Below are positions 14,067-28,759 of a stretch of 64,000 bases of DNA, in pieces. The stretch is from positions 1-64,000 of the forward strand of contig CAHJWI010000023.1 of assembly GCA_903642225.1 (NCBI GenBank). Direction: 5' to 3'. How positions within the stretch are numbered: the first letter of the stretch is position 1; each line of letters begins with the position of its first letter. The notes under the pieces are model-generated. The model had not been told where the DNA came from. It was given only the letters and a program-made list of their open reading frames with translations, and searched no databases. A program made the position numbers and the translations under genes. This stretch comes from Acidobacteriaceae bacterium. GTDB taxonomy: Bacteria > Acidobacteriota > Terriglobia > Terriglobales > Acidobacteriaceae.

Positions 14067-15302
14067 GTGGTTTCGGTGCAAGAAGCTCAACGCATCCTGG
14101 ATCTTTCGAAACGTGCAAGGAGCCGGGGCGAGCAGATGTACCTCGCCACGGTGGTGCATGTGCAGGGCTCTTCATACCGCAAACCCGGAGCTCGCATGTT
14201 AGTTACAGCAGGAGGAGAACGGGCCGGCACAATTAGTGGTGGCTGCCTCGAAGCAGAGGTGGGTCGAAAAATTGCATGGCTGACCGTTGGAGGTGCATTC
14301 ATCGCGCGGTACAGCTCTTCGTTCGATGATGAGAACGAGGGCGTTCCATACGGGGCTGGGGTGCGGAGGAACGATCTGGAGTTTGATGGAGACCGGCGAG
14401 GCAGTCTTCGCGGTGCTGGATGCAATGGAGCAAGCGCTCACTGAAGAGGAGTCATCCCTGGTCATCGCGTCTCTTTCTGAAAAGGTGACTGGAACTGTCG
14501 CTATCGTCAAAGGTTCGCGGAGTGCTGGAGGTTCTCGCCTGAATCCAGCGGAGCTTTCATCACTGGAAGACCTTCCAATTCTCTACGAACGCCCGAGCGT
14601 TACGCTTTCCAGTCAGATATCGCTAGTTTCGGGAGAGGCTTTCGACTTGCCGAACCTGGTGTGTATGCCGATCAAGCCGCCACCAAGCGTAACAATCTTC
14701 GGAGCCGGAGATGACGCTCAACCTCTAGTCCGCTTCGCCGCAGAGCTGGGATGGCGGGTGACTGTTTCGACGGGCGAAGTCACCTACTCACCCCGCAGCG
14801 ATTTCCTCAGGCGGATTCCTTGCACTTGCTTTCTTACGCTCTGAGTGAGGAAAGGTCCGTCGGCCGATGGGAACTGACAGCGGCGACTGGGATCGAAGTA
14901 GACGAGTACGCGGTCGTCCTCACACACTCTTACGAACAGGACCAAGCTCTACTACGCGAACTGATTCCACTCGATTTGCAATACCTTGGCATCCTTGGTC
15001 CCTTGCATCGCACCGAGCGTTTGGTCAACGTGGTAGCTCCGCAACTTGGAATGAGCTGCCATGAATGTTTGCGGAAAATCAACGCACCTGTTGGTCTTGA
15101 TTTCGGCTCAGATGAGCCGACGGTGATCGCTCTCTCAATCGTTTCTGAAATGCAGGCGACCCTGCTGCAAAGAACCGGTCGTCTCGAACGATCGCACCCC
15201 TTATCTTCACCCGCCGTTCAACCAGAAGAGTTCACGCTTCTGCGCCCCACCCTGCTCAAGCAGGAAGTAGATTACAAGCCCAACATGTTAGCCCTGCTTT
15301 AA
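14067..15302 (+). pseudogene. XdhC/CoxI-family Mo-cofactor maturation factor, two frameshifts
   Basis: XdhC-type proteins bind molybdopterin, help sulfurate it and insert it into xanthine-oxidase-family enzymes. The frame starts at a GTG (VQEAQRILDLSKRARSRGEQ) with GSSYRKPGARM and GTISGGCLEAEV. Near 14340 sense passes to a second frame (HTGLGCGGTIWSLMETGE, then PPSVTIFGAGDDAQPLVRFA). Near 14765 it passes to a third stretch (FDGRSHLLTPQRFPQADSLH, AVVLTHSYEQDQALLRELI, YLGILGPLHRTERL). Joined length is about 410 residues, slightly long but normal in order. Two separate one-base lesions suggest decay, or low consensus quality. It follows the Mo enzyme operon after 117 bases. Confidence 0.85.
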
Positions 15303-15404: not shown

Positions 15405-16458
15405 ATGTCACACGCGACAATTGCCTATGCTGCTCAAAGTGCGACTACGCCGCTCGCGCCCTTCCACATCGAACGTCGGGATACATCCGCTGCCGATGTT
15501 TCCATCGACATTCTGTTCTGCGGGGTCTGTCACTCAGACCTCCACCAATCTCGTAACGACTGGGGTATCAGCAACTTTCCCATTGTGCCTGAGCATGAGA
15601 TTGTCGGCCGAGTCCATGAAGTGGGAAGCGCTGTAAAGCGCTTTAAGCCAGGCGAGATCGTTGCGGTTGGTGTGTTGTACGACTCCTGCCGGACCTGTGC
15701 AAACTGTAATGCTGGTATCGAGCAGTATTGCCTCAATGGCGCGACAGAGACCTACAATAGCGTCGATAAGCGGCACGGCGGCATTACACGAGGCGGCTAC
15801 TCGAAACTTATCGTGGTTGATGAGGCTTACGTCTTTCATGTCCCCGAGAACCTCGACCCGGCTGCTGTCGCACCTTTGATGTGTGCGGGCATCACGACCT
15901 ATTCACCGCTGATGCATTGGGAGGTCGGTCCAGGACAAAAGGTGGGAGTCGTGGGGCTAGGCGGCCTCGGCCACATGGCTCTCAAGATCGCGCACGCTTT
16001 GGGTGCCAGTGTCGCCCTCTTCACGACCTCTCCCGGCAAAGCTGCCGACGCACGCCGTCTAGGCGCGGACGAGGTCATTATTTCGAAGAACGCAGAAGAG
16101 ATGACTGCGCATAAAGGATCGTTTCGATTTTATTCTTGACTGCGTTGCGGCTCCGCATGATCCTAACGAATATCTCGATCTCCTGAAGACCGATGGAACC
16201 CTGGTCTTGGTGGGCCTTCCCGAAACCCCTCTCGCAGTGCGAGCTTTCAGCCTCGCTCTTGACCGGCGTTCGATGGCTGGGTCGTATATCGGCGGTGTTC
16301 CCGAAACCCAGGCGATGCTTGACTTTTGCGGACGGCACAACATCGTCAGTGACATCGAGATGATCCGCATGGATCAGGTGAATGAGGCCTATGAGCGGCT
16401 ACTCAAAAGTGATGTGAAGTACCGATTCGTGATCGATATGGAGTCTCTCAAGGCTTAG
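15405..16458 (+). pseudogene. zinc alcohol dehydrogenase, YahK-like, one frameshift
   Basis: Medium-chain NADP-type aldehyde/alcohol dehydrogenase related to E. coli YahK. The ATG at 15405 reads MSHATIAYAAQSATTPLAPF. Zinc ligands are visible: GVCHSDLHQ (Cys and His region), PEHEIVG, and the structural set CRTCANCNAGIEQYC. The Rossmann motif is VVGLGGLGHMALK. The frame breaks at about 16112-16125: SFRFYS then stop, whereas the next frame reads DRFDFILDCVAAPHDPNEY and finishes KYRFVIDMESLKA. The joined product is about 350 residues, the family norm. Its place behind a Mo aldehyde oxidase operon would fit alcohol-aldehyde-acid conversion, but the gene is broken. Confidence 0.88.
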
Positions 16459-16998
16459 ATATCGAACCGACCAGGTCAAATCAGCGATCACTCTCGCGAT
16501 AAAGCTCTCTACACCGGCTAGGGTCCCGTCCGTCCTGCAAAGGCCCCTGGTCAGGGTGAGCGCTGGAAAGCGATTATGCTAATCGTCGCAGGCGAGACAC
16601 TCAATTTCGCGGCCTCTTGGCGCGAAGCTCTTGGTAAGTCCGACCAGGAGTTTTAATCTGCTGACGCTTCTCTTCTCGGCGTCCGTGACCTAACTCCATT
16701 TCCAGGACGGCCGTTTATTGAACACACCGCGAACCAGCAAACGCTGGTTTCGCCGTAACGGTATATGGGCTCGCTCTCGCTGCGCCGATCGCAAAGTGGT
16801 TCTTGCGCCGGCTTTGGGGGAGTGTTGCGCAGTCTTTATGTGCGAGCACTCACCCTTAATCTGCGGTCGCACTATCCGGCGTGCTCGTGTTGATGCTGAC
16901 TCAACACTCTAGAGTCGGCCTCTTTACCGAGGCTGCGTCGACGGCAAGCTTCCTCTTGCCTTCGGTCCATCCTCGCTGGATCTCATCGAGGAAGAACG
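16459..16998. other. gap: no intact gene, possible membrane-protein scrap
   Basis: About 540 bases without a gene I can support. Around 16738-16815 the plus strand reads NAGFAVTVYGLALAAPIAKW and FLRRLWGS, resembling a transmembrane segment of a cation/proton antiporter, but the text runs out within about 30 residues. It fits the debris seen on both sides. Confidence 0.35.
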
Positions 16999-17974: not shown

Positions 17975-18532
17975 CTAAGAAGGCGAAGGCTGCCGCACAT
18001 TCAGCGCGACGTAGCCGTCGCGGGCGACGATCTTGCCTCGCTCGCGGTAGAGTTCGGGGTTGTCCGGCTGTACCGTTGCCAGGCCGTCTACGTAGCGGTT
18101 GTACATGCAGAAGGCAGCCGCGATAAGCACGGTGTCGTGGATGTCCAGGTCGGTGGCACCCTGCGCGCGGGCGGCGGCGACGTCGTCGGCGGTGACGTTT
18201 TTGCCGCCTTGCTGGACGTGTGCCGCGATGCGGAGCAGGCTCTTCAGCTTGGGCGAGATGCCGGCGGCTTCGTAGTCGCGCTTGACGCACTGGACGAGGT
18301 CCTCGTCGTCCTGAAGATGGGCAGCCGCGATGGCGCCGTGGATGGACTGGCAGTAGTGGCAGTCGTTGAGCGACGACACGTAGGTCGCGATCAACTCCCG
18401 CTCGCCGGGGGCGAGGGACGTGGTGTCGCGCAATAGGACGTCGACGAGTTCGTTGAGAGGCTTTGAGGTTTCCGGGCGGAAGGCCATGGGGCCGCGGATT
18501 CCGGGCAGGTTGGGCAGGTCGATGTGTGGCAT
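17975..18532 (-). CDS. AhpD-like / carboxymuconolactone decarboxylase-family protein
   Basis: 185 residues, all-helical AhpD-like fold of the peroxidase-related type. The redox motif CHYCQSIH gives C58, C61 and H65 (C-x-x-C-x3-H), preceded by GERELIA with the usual Glu. Family members use the Cys pair to reduce peroxides or act as carboxymuconolactone-decarboxylase relatives. It is the last gene of the minus-strand operon, 26 bases after the MFS gene. In that setting it may protect the oxygen-sensitive corrinoid/iron-sulfur enzyme from peroxides, or act in the same catabolic route. That role is inferred from position only. Confidence 0.85.
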   Translation of the reverse strand: MPHIDLPNLPGIRGPMAFRPETSKPLNELVDVLLRDTTSLAPGERELIATYVSSLNDCHYCQSIHGAIAAAHLQDDEDLVQCVKRDYEAAGISPKLKSLLRIAAHVQQGGKNVTADDVAAARAQGATDLDIHDTVLIAAAFCMYNRYVDGLATVQPDNPELYRERGKIVARDGYVALNVRQPSPS

Positions 18533-18558
18533 GGGTCCTCTTCTCTTTGTTGCATCGT

Positions 18559-19812
18559 TTAGCCGACGTTGACGAGAACGTCGGACGGGTGTGGGGCCGC
18601 TTGCGCGTCCGGCTTGAATGGTGGAAACAGCAGCTGCAGGAGGGCTGCCGCGACGGAGGGTACGGCGAAGAGCAGGACGGTGGCCGCTGCGTAGGCATGG
18701 TGCCGGTCGAAGGCGCGGCCCATCAGCACCGGGCCGAAGGCGGCGCCGAGCGCGTAGGCCGTCCAGGTGAGGCCGTAGATGGTGGCGAAGCGTTGCTTGC
18801 CGAAGACCTTGGCGACGACATACGGCACCACATCCGACTCGCTGCCGGCACCGAAGCCGATCAGGAGGGCACCCAGGATGCCTGCCCAGCCGGTGGAGGC
18901 ATAGCCCAGCACGGCGACACCGGCGGCGGCAATGAGCATGACCGCCGCCGAGACGAACGGCGCGAAGATGCGATCCAGCAGGAAGCCGGTGGACAGCCGG
19001 CCCACAATGCCGGCGAGGCCGAGCACCGAGAGAGCCAGCGCTGCGTCTTTGCCCGGCACCCCGCGGCTGGTGAGCAGGGCCGCGAGGTGGGCGATGACCG
19101 CGTTGGCGCTGAACGCGGCAAGCAGGACCGGCACGGCGATGAGCCAGAACGCGGGGCGACCGGCGACCGACCGGAGCCTCAGCGGCGCTGGTGGCTGCAC
19201 GGTGAGCATGGTGGGCTCAGGCCGGTTGCGGACGAGCGCCGCGGTGAGGACGAGGCCCAGCAGACCGATGGCGCCGAGCGCGACGTAGCCGGAACGCCAG
19301 CCGCGAGAGCCGATGACGGCCTGTGCGACCAGAGGCATGAGGACCGCACCGACGGCGTTGCCGCAGAGGACGAGCGCGAAGGCGATGCCCCTGCGCCGGT
19401 CGAACCATGACAGGACGGCCCGCGAATAGGCGAGTTGCGCGGTGCCGTTTGCAACGACGCCGAGCACGAAGTAGGTCGCGTAGAACTGCGCGATGCCGCC
19501 GCGCAGCAGGGCAAGGGACATCATGGCGGCCGAGAAGACAAGGATGCTGGGCAGGATGATGTGGCGCGGCGGGCGGCGGTCGAGCAGGTGACCGATCCAC
19601 GGCGAGCAGAACGCGACCGTGATGGCGGTGATGGCGAAGCCGCGGGAGATCGCCTCCACCTTCCAGCCGAAGGCGGCATGCAGCGGGCCGATGAAGAGGC
19701 TGAAGGTGTACGGCACGATGGCCGCAAAGCTGACCATGACGCCGATGGACGCGGCCAGGGTGACTCGCCAGCCCTCGTAGCGCAGGGATTGTTCCGTGAG
19801 GTGGTTACGCAT
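18559..19812 (-). CDS. MFS transporter (monocarboxylate/oxalate-formate antiporter-like)
   Basis: 417 residues from the ATG at 19812 (MRNHLTEQSLRYEGWRVTLA). The frame stays open well upstream, but that part is a shadow of the next gene. Twelve hydrophobic segments are expected; the loop 2-3 motif appears as GHLLDRRPPRHIILPSI and the second half has GRLSTGFLLDRIFAPFV. The opening, with a hydrophobic helix ending in VPYTFSLFIGPL, resembles the oxalate/formate and monocarboxylate porter groups, so an organic acid is a plausible cargo. Its start overlaps the stop of the dehalogenase-like gene by eight bases, implying coupled translation. Confidence 0.85.
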   Translation of the reverse strand: MRNHLTEQSLRYEGWRVTLAASIGVMVSFAAIVPYTFSLFIGPLHAAFGWKVEAISRGFAITAITVAFCSPWIGHLLDRRPPRHIILPSILVFSAAMMSLALLRGGIAQFYATYFVLGVVANGTAQLAYSRAVLSWFDRRRGIAFALVLCGNAVGAVLMPLVAQAVIGSRGWRSGYVALGAIGLLGLVLTAALVRNRPEPTMLTVQPPAPLRLRSVAGRPAFWLIAVPVLLAAFSANAVIAHLAALLTSRGVPGKDAALALSVLGLAGIVGRLSTGFLLDRIFAPFVSAAVMLIAAAGVAVLGYASTGWAGILGALLIGFGAGSESDVVPYVVAKVFGKQRFATIYGLTWTAYALGAAFGPVLMGRAFDRHHAYAAATVLLFAVPSVAAALLQLLFPPFKPDAQAAPHPSDVLVNVG

Positions 19813-20878
19813 GGCGCTCCGTGTCCGGGGGCGGCGGTTGCCGGTCGAGCGGCGTCGGGGTCTCGGCCGGGTCTGCGTCTGCCGTTGCTGCCGGCGGTTC
19901 GCATGCCGCCATCTTCTGCAGCAGTTTGGGGCGCACATCGGGGCGCGTCCACGGGCAGACGGCAAAGCAGATGCCGCAGGAGGCCGCCTCCGCGAAGTAG
20001 GGGATGCACTTGTCGAAGTCGACGTACCAGCGCTCCTGACCGCGGACCATCTGCTTTTCGGGAGCGATGGCGGCGGGCGGGCAGCTGTTCGTGCAGATCT
20101 GGCAGGAGGTGCAGAAGCTGTCCGCGCCGAAGCGCACGGGCCTGTCCGCGGAGAGCGGCATGTCCGTTGTGACCGCTGCCAGGCGAACGCCGGAGCCGAA
20201 CTGCGGAGTGATGAGCGACCCGTGCTTGCCGAGCTCGCCCAGACCGGCAGCGATGGCCGGCGGGATGAGGAGCAGGGCGTCCGCGGAGGGGCCGGGGTAC
20301 GGTTTCGCGTGGTATCCCTGCGAGCGAATCCAGTTGGCCAGGGCGTAGGAGATGCGTGTGCCCCGCGCGTATTGCGTGCCGATTTCCGTGACGCCCACGC
20401 CGTTCGTCTCGTCGGAGGGGACCTCTTGCAGGTCGTCGTAGTTGTGCGCGAGCACGATGACGATGACCCAGGGATCGTCGATGGTGTACCCCTGGAAGAC
20501 GAACAGCGGGTCCATGCGCGCGATGCCGACCGCATCCACACCGGCGGAGAGCGCCCATTGCTTCACCTGTGCGGAGAGTGCCTCGGGCGAGCCCTCAAGC
20601 TTCGTTGCGGATGGAGCTTGGAGGGGCGGGTAGGTGTAGGCCTGCTGAAAGACCGGGCCGGTGCCGGGGCATTTGCGCGAGTTCGTCCGTGCGATGGTTT
20701 GCAGGTCGCCGTACGGATGAAGGGTGGGCGGGTGCCAGAAGAACGGCGATGCCTGCCGCACCGCGGTTTCACCCACGCCGTTGATGACGTTTCCCGACGT
20801 GACGACGAGGGATGCGATCTCAGGCCTGGGCCGGTAGGTGCCGCGTTTCGGACGCCTTGCATTGGGTGTGTAGGGCAT
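19805..20878 (-). CDS. reductive-dehalogenase-like corrinoid/iron-sulfur protein
   Basis: 357 residues. It shows the core RdhA/QueG-type signature GLGELGKHGSLITPQFGSGV, then TTDMPLSADRP, followed by two cluster motifs. C256, C259, C262, C266 (FCTSCQICTNSCP) form a classic 4Fe-4S set, and C291, C301, C304, C308 (CGICFAVCPW) form the spaced second set seen in reductive dehalogenases. No Tat signal is visible, and no RdhB membrane anchor gene is adjacent, so a cytoplasmic, non-respiratory role is likelier. RdhA enzymes remove halogens with a cobalamin cofactor. QueG (epoxyqueuosine reductase) is a relative, but the N-terminal 110 residues and the operon context argue against QueG. The substrate is unknown. 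Confidence 0.75.
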   Translation of the reverse strand: MPYTPNARRPKRGTYRPRPEIASLVVTSGNVINGVGETAVRQASPFFWHPPTLHPYGDLQTIARTNSRKCPGTGPVFQQAYTYPPLQAPSATKLEGSPEALSAQVKQWALSAGVDAVGIARMDPLFVFQGYTIDDPWVIVIVLAHNYDDLQEVPSDETNGVGVTEIGTQYARGTRISYALANWIRSQGYHAKPYPGPSADALLLIPPAIAAGLGELGKHGSLITPQFGSGVRLAAVTTDMPLSADRPVRFGADSFCTSCQICTNSCPPAAIAPEKQMVRGQERWYVDFDKCIPYFAEAASCGICFAVCPWTRPDVRPKLLQKMAACEPPAATADADPAETPTPLDRQPPPPDTERHA

Positions 20879-20893
20879 GGTCCCCTCCTGCCG

Positions 20894-23800
20894 CTAGTAG
20901 GTGAGTTTGAGTGAAAGCTGCAGCTGCCTGGCGGGGCCGGTGAATGTCGGCGTGCCGAAGGTGGGGTTCGCCGCGCTGGTGACGCCGTCGCCGTAGCCGC
21001 GCGGTACCGGGCCGGCAAACTGCGCGGCACCGTAGACCTGATCCACGTCCTGCACGTTCACACGGTTGAAGACGTTCAGTGCCTCGAAGCTGGCGTTCAG
21101 CTTTGCCCGCTCGGTCAGGGCAACGAGGCGTTGCAGGCGAACGTCGGTGTCGTAGTAGGCCGCGCCGCGGTAGCTGTTCCGGCCGATGCTGCCGACGCGG
21201 TCGTTGAAGGGGAAGCCGTCGCCGTTCACGTCGGACCCGGCCAGGATGTTGTAGAACTGCGGTGTTTGCAGCGTGTTTAGGATGGAAAACTGCAGGTGGC
21301 GCAGGGCCGGCGACCAAGTCTCCGGTGCCTCCGCCAGTGCCGTGAGCGTGAGGCGGTGGCGCACGTCGTTGTCGCTGACGGCGCGATCCAGGTCGGGCCG
21401 CAGATAGTTCTGGGGCTCGTCCTGCAACTGGTTTTCCGTCGCCACGTCGATGGACTTCGCGTAGGTGTAGTTCGCCAGGAGGCTGAAGTGCTGTGCCATC
21501 CCCCTGCGGAGCGTGAGCGTGCCGGCGTTGTAGATGGACCAGCCGGAGGGCGTTGCGTACAGGGCGAAGCCGAAGTTGCTGTCGGCGGGCGTGAACCTTT
21601 GCCTGCCGTCGATCAGGGTGCCGGCGGGAGCACCGTTAATGGTGTTCGAACTCAGGAGGTGCATGGCGTGAACGTAGTGGTAGCCCGCGGTCAGGAACCA
21701 CCTCCGGCCAAGGTCGTTTTCGAACTCCAGCGTCGCCTGCTCGGAGTAGGCGTTGGGGAACTTGCGCCGGACGAAGCCGAGCGGAAACTGCTTGAGAACC
21801 GCGGGGCTGGGATAGATGCCGTTGCGCGTGAAGTTGGAGAACGCCGCGGCGGACGTACCCGGCCCGACCGTCCCCACCATGCCGGCCTCGCCGAAGCCCA
21901 CGAGCTGGTTGGCCGGGTCGCTGAACTCCGGCAGGTACGGCTGGTTCATGGCGGTGAAGGCGGACGCACCGTGCCAGCCGTTGACCGTGCTGCTGTACTC
22001 GAACGAGCCGGTATACAGGCCGAAGCTGCTGCGAATCACGCTCCTGTCGTTCCGGAACGTGTACGCAACGCCCACGCGCGGTTGCACGTTGCCGTAGTTG
22101 GTCGGGTTCATGTTGCCGAGGATGCCGAGGTCCGCGGCCGAGGGAAAGACATCGATGTCGTACCGCAAGCCGAGCGAGACGGCGAGTCCGCTCCCCGGTT
22201 TCCACTGGTCCTGCACGTACAGCGACACGAGCCTGTGCCAGAAGGCGACGGCATCCGCACTCTGGCGGGCCGCCGCGTCTGGCCCGGTGTAGAAGCCGTT
22301 CTGGAAGGGCAGCGCACGTTGCGGCACCTGCCGGCCAAACTCCGTGCGCGGCTGCTGGAAGAGGAACTGCACGGCGGTGCCGGGGCCGAACGCGGCGAAG
22401 GGCCCGGTGCCGAAGAAGCTTTGCGGGCTGAAGATGCCGACGCCCGGCGTAAAGTACGGCGTTTGCGCGGCGAACCAGATGGGTTCGACGTCGGCGCCGA
22501 AGGTGACCGAGTTGCGATCGCCGCTGCGGGTAAGCGCCTCTTTCGCCTGGAAGTGGTGCTCGCTGTAGTAGCTGACGCCGCCCAGGAAGCCGCCGCTGTA
22601 CAGCGTGTCTGCGACGTTGAGCGATGGCTCGAAGCCGGCGCCGACGGGATTCGTGTGGAAGATGCGCCGGCCGAAGGTCAGGGCACTTTCCGAGTTCCAG
22701 CGCGCCCCCATCAGGTGGAAGAAGTCGCCGTAGACCGTCTGGTCGTGGATGCGGTTGTCGCGATAGCTGGAGGGCAGGCCCTGGCCCGGCGAGGCGGCCG
22801 GCGTGCCCCCGTTGTGGACGGCGGTATACAGGTAGCCGACGTTCAGCGTGGAGCGTTCGCTCAGCACGTCGGTGAGCTTGCCGAAGGCGTTGTTGTAGTC
22901 CGCCGTCAGCAGGTTTGCGCGGAGGTTTTCCGGCGCCAGGCCAAGGCGCGTCTTCACCTGGTTGATGCTTGGCGTGCCCGGCCCAAGGCAGCCCTGCGTG
23001 TCGATGCACCGCAGGATGAAGCTGGAATAGAGCGGCGATTGCGCGCGGCGCTGGCCCTCGAACCCGGCGAAGAAGAAGGTCTTCTCCTTGCGAATGGGGT
23101 CGCCCGCCGTGGTGCCGAACTGGTTGAAGCGCAGCGCGTTGAAGCCCGGGGCGGACAGGAGGTTGTTTGCGTTGAGCGCGTTGTTGCGGAAGTAGTCGTA
23201 CACCGAGCCGTGAAAGGTGTCTGTGCCGGAACGCGTAATGGTCGCTACGGAACCGCCCATGTTCAGGCCCTCCGTGGCGCCGGGGCCGTTGACGACGCGG
23301 AACTCCTGCACCCACTCGATGGAAGGGCTGACGCGCTGAATGCCGGAGACGGTGGTGGTGTAGTCGATGCCGTCCAGCCCGTAGAAGACGCTGTGCGTCT
23401 CCCGAAGCCCGCCGAAGCTGATCTGGAGGACCGGCTCCTGGAAGGCGGACTGCGCGCCCGTGGTGAAGTTGCGGCCGATGGCTGCGGTCGGCGTGAGCAG
23501 GGCGAAGTCGATGAAGTCCCGCTCCAGGATCGGCAGGTTCTGGATCTCGCTCGGGCTGATGACCTGGCTGGGCGCGGTGCGATCCGTTTCGACGCCGACC
23601 GGGGTGTCTCGCACGTCCACCTCTTGGCTGGTGCCGGCCACCTGCAGCCGCGTGTGCAGGGAGGCGGACTCGCCCAGGGCAAGGGTCAGCGGCGTCTCCG
23701 CGATGGCGAAGCCGGCGGCGCTGACACGAACTATGTATATTCCGGCAACAAGCCCCGGTACTTCCGCGTCGCCGGTTTTGTCCGAAGACACGTAGCGGAG

Positions 23801-24109
23801 GACACCCGTGTCCTTGTTTTGTACAGAAACTTTTGCTTCCGGAATCAAACGTCCAGCAGCATCCTCAACGGTGATTCTCACCGTCGCAAACTGCTGTGCG
23901 ACGGCTTGTACACCACCGGACACGAACATTGCGCACGCAGCAAGGCTGACAAATGCTCGTCTGGTAGCAGGGTTGGAGCGTTCATTGCAACGCTCAGGCA
24001 AGTCAGACAGATGGAGAAACCGCGGTGAAACCAAGGGACCTCGCGCAGCGATAAAAAGTGTTTGTTGATTGCGCTGAGAAGTATGGTTCGTAGGTTCAAA
24101 CATGAACAA
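20894..24109 (-). CDS. Oar-like TonB-dependent outer-membrane receptor
   Basis: Up to 1071 residues. A probable export signal (RRAFVSLAACAMFVSGGVQA) is followed by a carboxypeptidase-regulatory-like domain (VRITVEDAAGRLIPEAKVSV), the plug (SPSEIQNLPILERDFIDFAL) and a large barrel ending in LQLSLKLTY. The long N-terminal extension before the signal suggests that the true start is downstream of 24109, perhaps a TTG near 24001; I could not fix it. Such receptors take up large or scarce compounds using TonB energy. It heads the operon, 15 bases before the dehalogenase-like gene. The whole 17.9-24.1 kb block looks more GC-rich by eye than its neighbours. Confidence 0.88.
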   Translation of the reverse strand: MFMFEPTNHTSQRNQQTLFIAARGPLVSPRFLHLSDLPERCNERSNPATRRAFVSLAACAMFVSGGVQAVAQQFATVRITVEDAAGRLIPEAKVSVQNKDTGVLRYVSSDKTGDAEVPGLVAGIYIVRVSAAGFAIAETPLTLALGESASLHTRLQVAGTSQEVDVRDTPVGVETDRTAPSQVISPSEIQNLPILERDFIDFALLTPTAAIGRNFTTGAQSAFQEPVLQISFGGLRETHSVFYGLDGIDYTTTVSGIQRVSPSIEWVQEFRVVNGPGATEGLNMGGSVATITRSGTDTFHGSVYDYFRNNALNANNLLSAPGFNALRFNQFGTTAGDPIRKEKTFFFAGFEGQRRAQSPLYSSFILRCIDTQGCLGPGTPSINQVKTRLGLAPENLRANLLTADYNNAFGKLTDVLSERSTLNVGYLYTAVHNGGTPAASPGQGLPSSYRDNRIHDQTVYGDFFHLMGARWNSESALTFGRRIFHTNPVGAGFEPSLNVADTLYSGGFLGGVSYYSEHHFQAKEALTRSGDRNSVTFGADVEPIWFAAQTPYFTPGVGIFSPQSFFGTGPFAAFGPGTAVQFLFQQPRTEFGRQVPQRALPFQNGFYTGPDAAARQSADAVAFWHRLVSLYVQDQWKPGSGLAVSLGLRYDIDVFPSAADLGILGNMNPTNYGNVQPRVGVAYTFRNDRSVIRSSFGLYTGSFEYSSTVNGWHGASAFTAMNQPYLPEFSDPANQLVGFGEAGMVGTVGPGTSAAAFSNFTRNGIYPSPAVLKQFPLGFVRRKFPNAYSEQATLEFENDLGRRWFLTAGYHYVHAMHLLSSNTINGAPAGTLIDGRQRFTPADSNFGFALYATPSGWSIYNAGTLTLRRGMAQHFSLLANYTYAKSIDVATENQLQDEPQNYLRPDLDRAVSDNDVRHRLTLTALAEAPETWSPALRHLQFSILNTLQTPQFYNILAGSDVNGDGFPFNDRVGSIGRNSYRGAAYYDTDVRLQRLVALTERAKLNASFEALNVFNRVNVQDVDQVYGAAQFAGPVPRGYGDGVTSAANPTFGTPTFTGPARQLQLSLKLTY

Positions 24110-26526: not shown

Positions 26527-27395
26527 TCAATCTTTGCCAACAGCAGGCGGAGCGTTTTCGGTCTCTTCCTGATCAAAAACAGTGTCGGTTTGCATCAAAT
26601 AGCTTTTCAGTCGCTTGAGGTCTGGAGATCCAGCATTGGGAGCGGGCAATTCAGGCAATGCGGCGTTGTCCTTCAGCGCCACCCCACTTCGTCCTAGCGC
26701 CCGCGCGCCGTTCAAAAGATAAACCAGCTTTGTAACAGCCAGGGAAACACTCAGCCCACCGGCACGAATATTTGAAACGCAATTACGCAGAGCGTCTGTT
26801 GTGCCCACGCGCGGTGCATACGTCAGGTAGGCACCGAGACTTTCCGGGACTTCAAGCCCGGTCGTTCCCCCAGCAGCACCAGCACGGCTTCCGCTTGGCG
26901 CAGCGCGCCTACCTCGTCTCCCAGTGCCACGCGCGCTTGCTCTGCAATCACGACCGTATCCATCGTCCAATCCGTCAGCCGCGCGCGCAGTTCCTTCAGT
27001 ATCGGAATGCCGTAGCGTGGAGCCGCCGCAGAAGAAAGTCCGTCGCATACGACCACTGTCAACCGATGTGTCGTCGTTGTCAGCCCACACAACAACGCTT
27101 CGGCAGATGCAGCATCGAGTCTTCGCCCAAGGTCGGGTCTACGCAGATACTGTGCCCTGCTGACGGCCTGGCTCCTCACCGCCGCCGTCTGAAAACCCGC
27201 ATAGTGCAAGTCCGTGGCCAGCTTCTCCACGTCCAGCCGGGCATGCACGGCATCGCGTGCCGCCGCATGGTCCGCGCCAAAATCCAGGTTTGCGACAGTC
27301 GGCATGCTCGCTCCCACTCTGCCCAGGGCTAAACGCGCCTCGGTCCACGCGCGCAGCTGTCGCAAGTCCGCCGCTTCTACGATCAGGCCGCTCAT
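26527..27395 (-). pseudogene. eutC: ethanolamine ammonia-lyase small subunit, one frameshift
   Basis: EutC forms the adenosylcobalamin enzyme with EutB, splitting ethanolamine to acetaldehyde and ammonia. The ATG at 27395 overlaps the eutB stop (ATGA). The first frame reads MSGLIVEAADLRQLRAWTEA, ARLALGRVG, then VVVCDGLSS and [11 protein letters not shown]. The family continues [15 protein letters not shown], found in the next frame followed by [19 protein letters not shown]. Adding one C to the CCC run (complement of 26846-26848) restores [17 protein letters not shown] exactly, so a single base is missing. This may be a real mutation or a homopolymer error. The C-terminus after [11 protein letters not shown] is about 35 residues longer than usual. 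Confidence 0.88.
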
Positions 27396-28759
27396 CCAGC
27401 TCCTGGAAGTGCAACCTGCGATCCCAGCAACTCCCCATTCGTACCCGTCACACCCATGCGTTCCAGCCACGTTTCAAACTCTGGTGCGCGCCGCAACCCA
27501 AGCAGCCGCCGCAGGTACAGCGCGTCATGAAACGAAGTGCTCTGGTAGTTCAGCATGATGTCGTCTGCGCCCGGCACACCCATCACAAAGTTCACACCTG
27601 CCGTTCCAAGCAGCGTCAGCAGCGTATCCATGTCGTCCTGATCTGCCTCGGCATGGTTTGTGTAGCACACGTCGCAACCCATGGGCAGGCCCAGCAGCTT
27701 GCCGCAAAAGTGATCCTCCAGCCCGGCGCGCACAATCTGCTTGCCGTCATACAGGTACTCCGGTCCGATAAAACCAACTACGGTATTGACCAGCATCGGC
27801 TTGAACACACGTGCCACCGCATACGCCCGCGCCTCAAGCGTCTGCTGGTCGACACCGTGGTTCGCCCCTGCGGACAAGGCGCTGCCCTGGCCCGTCTCGA
27901 AGTACATGCAGTCGTCCCCGACCGTGCCTCGCCGCAGGCTCAGCGCCGCCTCCTGTGCCTCGCGCAGCATGTGCAGCGACACGCCAAACGACGCGTTCGT
28001 TCCTTCCGTTCCAGCAATGGACTGGAACACCAGGTCGACCGGTGCGCCCGCTTCCATCGCCTCCATCGTGTTCGTCACGTGGGTCAGCACGCAGCTCTGC
28101 ATCGGAATCTCAAACCGCAGCCGCAAGTCATCCAGCATGTGCAGCAACTCTATAGCGCCCGACACGCTGTCCGATGCCGGATTGATACCCACAACGGCGT
28201 CGCCGCACCCGTACATCAAGCCGTCCATCGTCGACGCAAAGATGCCGCGCAGGTCGTCCGTCGGGTGATTGGGCTGCAGGCGAATGGCGAGTCGTCCCGG
28301 CAGCCCGACCGTCGTGCGAAATCGCGTGACCACGGTGCACTTTCTTGCTGCCAGGATCAAGTCCTGGTTTCGCATCAGCTTGCTCACCGCCGCCGCCATC
28401 TCGGGCGTAATCCCCGGGCGTATCCTCTCGAGCGCCACGCCGTCCACCGCATCACTGAGCAGCCACTCCCGAAACCCTCCAACCGTCAGTGACCCGACAG
28501 CTCCAAATGCCGTGGCATCATGCGAGTCCAGGATCAGCCGGGTCACATCGTCCGCTTCGTATGGCACCACGGCTTCGTTCAGAAAGTGCCGCAAGGGCAC
28601 GTCCGCCAGTGCATACCGCGCAGCTGCCCGCTCGGTCTCACTCGCCGCTGCAACCCCCGCCAGCTCATCGCCAGACCGCAACGGCGTCGCGCAAGCAAGT
28701 AGCGCCTTCAGGTCCTGAAACCTGTAGCGCACCCCCCGCAGCGTGGCCGCAAATTTCAT
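27392..28759 (-). CDS. eutB: ethanolamine ammonia-lyase large subunit
   Basis: 455 residues, full length for EutB, which carries the TIM-barrel active site and binds substrate and B12. Typical blocks are LMRNQDLILAARKC, RLQPNHPTDDLRGIFASTMD, GDAVVGINPASDSV, THVTNTMEAMEAGAPVDLVF, SIAGTEGTNASFGV, and CDVCYTNHAEADQDDMDTLL. The start ATG overlaps the stop of the permease remnant (TGATG) and its stop overlaps eutC. No microcompartment shell genes are nearby, so this is the simple eat-eutBC type in which acetaldehyde is handled elsewhere. Activity depends on whether eutC is really broken. Confidence 0.95.
   Translation of the reverse strand: MKFAATLRGVRYRFQDLKALLACATPLRSGDELAGVAAASETERAAARYALADVPLRHFLNEAVVPYEADDVTRLILDSHDATAFGAVGSLTVGGFREWLLSDAVDGVALERIRPGITPEMAAAVSKLMRNQDLILAARKCTVVTRFRTTVGLPGRLAIRLQPNHPTDDLRGIFASTMDGLMYGCGDAVVGINPASDSVSGAIELLHMLDDLRLRFEIPMQSCVLTHVTNTMEAMEAGAPVDLVFQSIAGTEGTNASFGVSLHMLREAQEAALSLRRGTVGDDCMYFETGQGSALSAGANHGVDQQTLEARAYAVARVFKPMLVNTVVGFIGPEYLYDGKQIVRAGLEDHFCGKLLGLPMGCDVCYTNHAEADQDDMDTLLTLLGTAGVNFVMGVPGADDIMLNYQSTSFHDALYLRRLLGLRRAPEFETWLERMGVTGTNGELLGSQVALPGAG

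Follow-up and report, generated by a model that had tools for sequence, protein, structure and literature searches.

A candidate deep branch of vitamin-B12 reductive dehalogenases linked to uptake genes in an Acidobacteriaceae bacterium

Four closely spaced genes of an Acidobacteriaceae bacterium, all on the minus strand of a 64,000-nt stretch of contig CAHJWI010000023.1 (hereafter the window, whose numbering is used for all gene coordinates), raise the question of whether they act together in the uptake and reduction of a halogenated compound. They encode, in this order, an Oar-like, TonB-dependent-type outer-membrane receptor (20894-24109; 1071 aa from a TTG, the true start being uncertain), a corrinoid/2[4Fe-4S] reductase of the RdhA branch (RDH; 19805-20878; 357 aa), an MFS porter (18559-19812; 417 aa from the ATG at 19812, beyond which the frame extends in the list of open reading frames, ORFs), and a dithiol protein of the AhpD/CMD family (17975-18532; 185 aa). 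The ORF coordinates bear out the distances of 15, -8, and 26 bases between the genes reported in an earlier sequence-only reading, and purine-rich letters resembling ribosome-binding sites precede the second, third, and fourth genes. On the basis of its sequence, RDH appears to stem from a deep lineage of the vitamin-B12 reductive dehalogenases that seems not to have been characterised. Both its enzyme class and its linkage to uptake genes are well supported, and, on balance, we lean towards considering the operon a unit that takes up and reduces some small halogenated organic molecule, with a carboxylate, aromatic or otherwise, as the likeliest candidate.

The RDH sequence contains the two cysteine motifs of RdhA (C256-x2-C-x2-C-x3-CP and C291-x9-C-x2-C-x3-CP) together with the GLGELGKHG signature, as the sequence-only reading had stated. 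The eight cluster cysteines and the predicted catalytic pair, Tyr170 and Arg232, are kept in all 50 aligned members of the clade. In the phylogenetic tree, which gave long-branch warnings, this clade is the sister group of the 34 RdhA sequences (support values of 93/87 and 99/97) and QueG is separate (100/100); its position is that of a deep sister of RdhA, placed between RdhA and QueG. Since tree and fold comparison both put RDH outside QueG, membership of that family, which the earlier reading had left to a tree, was rejected.

The protein has a single core, the model being aligned to one core over residues 38-327, with no membrane part, no fused reductase, and no Tat-type leader recognisable by eye (no predictor was used); moreover, the gaps within the operon are too small to hold an rdhB gene. 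The lack of a Tat signal and of an RdhB partner noted earlier thus holds. Other acidobacterial RdhA sequences (e.g., L125, L137, and L139) are also short and devoid of the Tat pattern searched for, so that it is not the size of RDH alone that is special, but its separate clade. The other Acidobacteriota RdhA sequences (L116-L145) are diverse, and several of them carry Tat-like leaders.

Near-full-length relatives of RDH were found in 12 of 150 genomes of the family, the window genome counted, with identities of 62-71% excluding self; the remaining family matches listed were partial (about residues 167-336) and mostly QueG-like. A scan of genome contigs yielded 331 relatives among 347 candidate stretches; the 79 loci retained, 43-71% identical to RDH, belong to Acidobacteriota, Alpha-, Beta-, and Gammaproteobacteria, and a few others, according to their record titles. 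The closest matches in plasmid records (10 records) were RdhA proteins sharing 26-30% identity. RdhA above the model cut-off occurs in 34 of 396 Acidobacteriota genomes, and the RDH of the window genome falls below it. No paper on this operon or clade was found by title or abstract in the open-licence PMC literature, nor did the same literature yield one combining a reductive dehalogenase, an MFS transporter, and a TonB-dependent receptor; for forest soil, the available part of one study reports only pceA-related reductive dehalogenase genes (PMC4926216).

Is the linkage of RDH to the other three genes conserved? We checked 5 kb around the RDH gene in 32 distinct acidobacterial loci, including the window, several of them with shorter flanks. 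An MFS gene and an AhpD-type gene were each present in 16 loci (15 of 31 without the window), the latter being of the window's type in 11 loci and of a second type in nine, and the window's receptor type in eight. One or more partners are retained in 20 of the 31 other loci, and all three in five (L033, L035, L038, L044, and L058). The receptor gene lies immediately upstream of that of RDH (53-81 bases, as measured from tblastn ends) in L033, L044, L051, L058, and L165, where it encodes a protein 65-69% identical to the window receptor, and an MFS gene follows immediately downstream on the same strand, at 33-135 bases, in ten of the 31. The exact order of the window was found in none of them; in L033, L044, and L058 it is receptor-RDH-AhpD-MFS. 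Of the conservation that the sequence-only reading proposed to look for, the gene content recurs and the exact order does not.

The association was also evaluated across the 149 family genomes other than that of the window, using hypergeometric values uncorrected for kinship and scoring only the best candidates per genome (E-value limits of 1e-60 for MFS, 1e-35 for AhpD, and 1e-40 for a halogenase-like gene). MFS and AhpD genes each occur in nine of the 11 RDH genomes (2.0 expected, p 2.6e-6, and 2.1 expected, p 5.4e-6, respectively); the association of RDH, MFS, and AhpD exceeds chance. The receptor, for which at most five candidates per genome were scored, is not significantly associated when all matches are taken (4/11, p 0.10); at an identity of at least 56%, a threshold picked after viewing the list, it is present in 4/11 RDH genomes with p 2e-4.

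A further line of evidence comes from a search with the proteins of a Sphingomonas locus (L063), which covered 57 loci, four of them (L052-L054 and L058) overlapping the 32-locus set. Receptor, RDH, and MFS genes follow one another in the same direction in L063, in a second Sphingomonas locus (L059), and in Niveispirillum (L060), and eight other loci gave weaker, partial matches to the L063 receptor (26-37%). This receptor is a TonB_dep_Rec/Plug protein, and the L063 porter comes closest, with scores under the cut-offs, to the models for 3-(3-hydroxyphenyl)propionate and for aromatic acids. That one enzyme is accompanied by other kinds of receptor and porter speaks for genuine uptake and gives a hint of an aromatic carboxylate. 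The uptake half of the uptake-and-dehalogenation unit proposed from the sequence gains ground from the conserved linkage and from these assemblies; dehalogenation by RDH is likely.

In the window, the receptor matches CarboxypepD_reg (PF13620) and OMP_b-brl_4 (PF25183), which we take to be the Oar-like barrel, both above cut-off; the Plug model gave no match to it at E<=1e-3. The porter belongs to MFS_1, its closest models being those for L-lactate and oxalate/formate, both below cut-off. The receptor would carry the compound over the outer membrane, the porter would move it, or a product, through the inner membrane, and its reduction by the RdhA-branch enzyme would take place in the cytoplasm. 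A general ferredoxin or flavodoxin would supply electrons, which would pass through the two [4Fe-4S] clusters to a base-off cobalamin, whose cobalt would engage the carbon-halogen bond, while Tyr170, tuned by Arg232, would donate a proton and the halide would depart. The host may plausibly use corrinoids, given an adenosyltransferase family match and the presence, a few kb from the operon, of EutC and EutB genes (26823-28759) for the B12-dependent ethanolamine ammonia-lyase. In two other loci (L066, 4280-8927, and L070, 4382-9032), the RDH gene is preceded by two genes akin to those for indolepyruvate:ferredoxin oxidoreductase, a possible electron source, the alpha model of which was matched below cut-off.

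The AhpD-type protein might perform a separate redox step, either thiol-based removal of halogen or removal of peroxide. The arrangement E-x11-CxxC-x3-H, whose residues we take to be the AhpD active site, is found in the window protein and in all members of two ORF clusters (43/43 and 9/9). The protein is assigned to the CMD family, it exceeds the cut-off of the peroxidase-related model TIGR01926, and its relatives of solved structure are for the most part peroxidase-related AhpD proteins. Bmp8, a CMD homologue, is described in the accessible text as a dehalogenating and as a decarboxylating enzyme (PMC7918430). A role as a thiol-based dehalogenase is possible; the peroxide defence suggested by the sequence-only reading is unproven, as the AhpD/MFS pair occurs without RDH and a member of the same family is described as dehalogenating.

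Several observations weigh against an uptake-and-reduction unit for a halogenated compound. The score of RDH against TIGR02486 is 115.7 bits, under the curated cut-off of 160.35, the QueG model being the second match (51.6 bits vs. a cut-off of 200). Tyr170, Lys218, and the cysteine motifs are common to RDH and QueG, and Ile166 and Phe295 replace the phenol-binding residues Ser422 and Arg552 of NpRdhA. No ferredoxin or reductase gene lies within the operon, and the window gave no Rfam match at gathering scores, that is, no cobalamin riboswitch was found. Receptors of the same broad kind are plentiful in the window genome (35 match rows), and ten of the 32 loci have no partner near RDH. Furthermore, among the 27 family genomes with MFS, 29 with AhpD, and 20 with both, the MFS/AhpD pair is also present without RDH (e.g., G095, G128, and G137), so that RDH looks like an addition to a more general MFS/AhpD module. 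The loci L158, L160, L161, L169, and L171 have MFS with at least one AhpD gene, some with receptors, and no RDH.

Some of these data would fit another chemistry of a corrinoid reductase with this fold, in which the group reduced carries no halogen (an epoxide, an ether, a hydroxyl, or an activated double bond) and belongs to a soil aromatic imported by the operon, in parallel with QueG, which acts on an epoxide. The position of the family between RdhA and QueG and the sharing of Lys218 and Tyr170 with the latter point this way, and the neighbours in the broad family include CoA ligases and aromatic hydroxylases instead of genes with an evident link to halogens. On the other hand, Arg232 (Arg/Lys) and Trp284 (Trp/Tyr) occur in the RdhA sequences and are missing from 12 of 12 QueG sequences, and a halogenase-like gene is present in five of the 11 RDH genomes (0.9 expected, p 5e-4). 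On the whole, we regard this alternative as unlikely, albeit the strongest of those considered.

A second alternative is the tailoring of, or self-protection against, a halogenated secondary metabolite, to which a flavin halogenase would add halogens, RDH and AhpD would remove them, and receptor and porter would transport the metabolite. A halogenase-like FAD gene lies within 5 kb of RDH in five of the 32 loci (L031, L036, L043, L051, and L165), and AhpD, DinB, FAD protein, receptor, and RDH genes are collinear in L165 and L176, the latter being identical with L051. For the L176 protein, the top-ranking solved structures are those of halogenases (5buk, 5e-21; 8zop, 3e-18; PltA, 4e-17; CmlS, 7e-14). 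Two motifs that mark halogenases are present: WxWxIP in ten of ten loci, and [YF]KRH in 7/7 of one ORF cluster, one locus being counted twice, and in six of the ten loci by a stricter pattern. In L177, a gene of this type adjoins a truncated RDH. Moreover, 11 of the 12 genomes with such a gene also have MFS, seven of the 12 being without RDH, and the accessible part of PMC7918430 shows a flavin halogenase paired with a CMD homologue in the bmp cluster. Against this, a search of the window genome turned up no halogenase-like gene, and none lies within 5 kb in 26 of the 31 other loci, some with short flanks. In addition, the L031 protein has the monooxygenase QhpG as its best NCBIfam match, below cut-off, so that halogenation by these FAD proteins is not established. 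This alternative seems to us improbable. That RDH is a QueG paralogue, or that the four genes are chance neighbours without a common function, is very improbable: the motifs shared with QueG, the ten loci without partners, and the unique order of the window would agree with it, but tree and fold separate RDH from QueG, the genome has its own QueG-like match (G000:C3), and the co-occurrence is far over expectation.

As to the origin of the operon, a high-GC block extends from 17975 to 23750, with a GC content of about 0.66-0.69 per gene and a GC content at third codon positions (GC3) of 0.84-0.95 over most of it. GC3 is 0.84 in RDH, 0.88 in MFS, and 0.86 in AhpD, against 0.58-0.75 in six nearby genes. 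The edge near 23750 lies inside the receptor reading frame, where GC3 is 0.45-0.55 across codons 1-120 and 0.82-0.95 across codons 121-400 (steps of 40). In relatives, the operon genes deviate by no more than about 0.11 from the median for the other ORFs of the locus (17 loci with ORFs to compare), and RDH is present in one of 19 genomes of the genus, the window's own. The contrast with the surroundings, the agreement of the relatives' copies with theirs, and this restricted occurrence suggest that the block was imported recently from a high-GC donor, the junction falling within the receptor gene. Misassembly at this step is unlikely, as the receptor reads as a single full-length relative of other receptors; its N-terminal part is the least alike region among them. 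A resident paralogue as the source of the low-GC start was unsupported, the best ones in the genome being 32-35% identical, and, of flanking repeats that could mark an insertion, only short, imperfect pairs were found. Outside the block, an XdhC-like protein is broken across three overlapping frames (14067-15302) and a zinc alcohol dehydrogenase has a frame shift near 16100 (15405-16460), due to sequencing errors or decay.

If the preferred reading, import and reduction of a halogenated compound, is right, a single-core RDH branch, present in soil and marine bacteria and equipped with its own uptake operons, would provide a means of turning over natural organohalogens in peat, lichen, and forest soils (habitats according to record titles), and would offer a new enzyme set to test. 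A bolder proposal, which we consider doubtful, is that of an Acidobacteriaceae mosaic halogen module, in which the deep-branch B12 enzyme would serve one imported compound class together with AhpD/CMD-type proteins, these providing a further dehalogenase that needs no metal, and with a flavin halogenase where a strain has one; aerobic soil bacteria would then add and remove halogens on one natural scaffold.

How does RDH compare with known systems? According to the accessible text of PMC10463259, RdhA comprises two catabolic subfamilies, with a vestigial duplicated core, one respiratory, and one transmembrane, and the characterised catabolic enzymes act on ortho-halogenated phenols; the duplicated core and fused reductase given there for NpRdhA/BhbA are lacking in RDH, which also differs in having Ile166/Phe295 in place of Ser422/Arg552 and in forming a separate clade. 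Compared with the respiratory enzymes of the PceA type, RDH has neither a Tat leader, judging by eye, nor an RdhB, and the PceA-like sequences have Trp at the position of its Phe295. QueG, the epoxyqueuosine reductase, belongs to the same corrinoid/4Fe-4S superfamily. T7RdhA, assigned to the PceA branch in the available portion of PMC10008544, has a Lys-His near a cluster, as RDH does, and, by the numbering printed in that portion, a Tyr-to-Lys distance of 45 vs. 48 in RDH. Finally, the bmp cluster for marine brominated pyrroles and phenols joins a flavin halogenase and a CMD homologue (PMC7918430), a pairing resembled in some relatives of the window operon by flavin-halogenase-like and CMD/AhpD-family genes, and Bmp8 and the window AhpD share the CMD family name; the search of the window genome for a halogenase-like gene gave no match, and a B12 reductase, a receptor, and a porter are added here.
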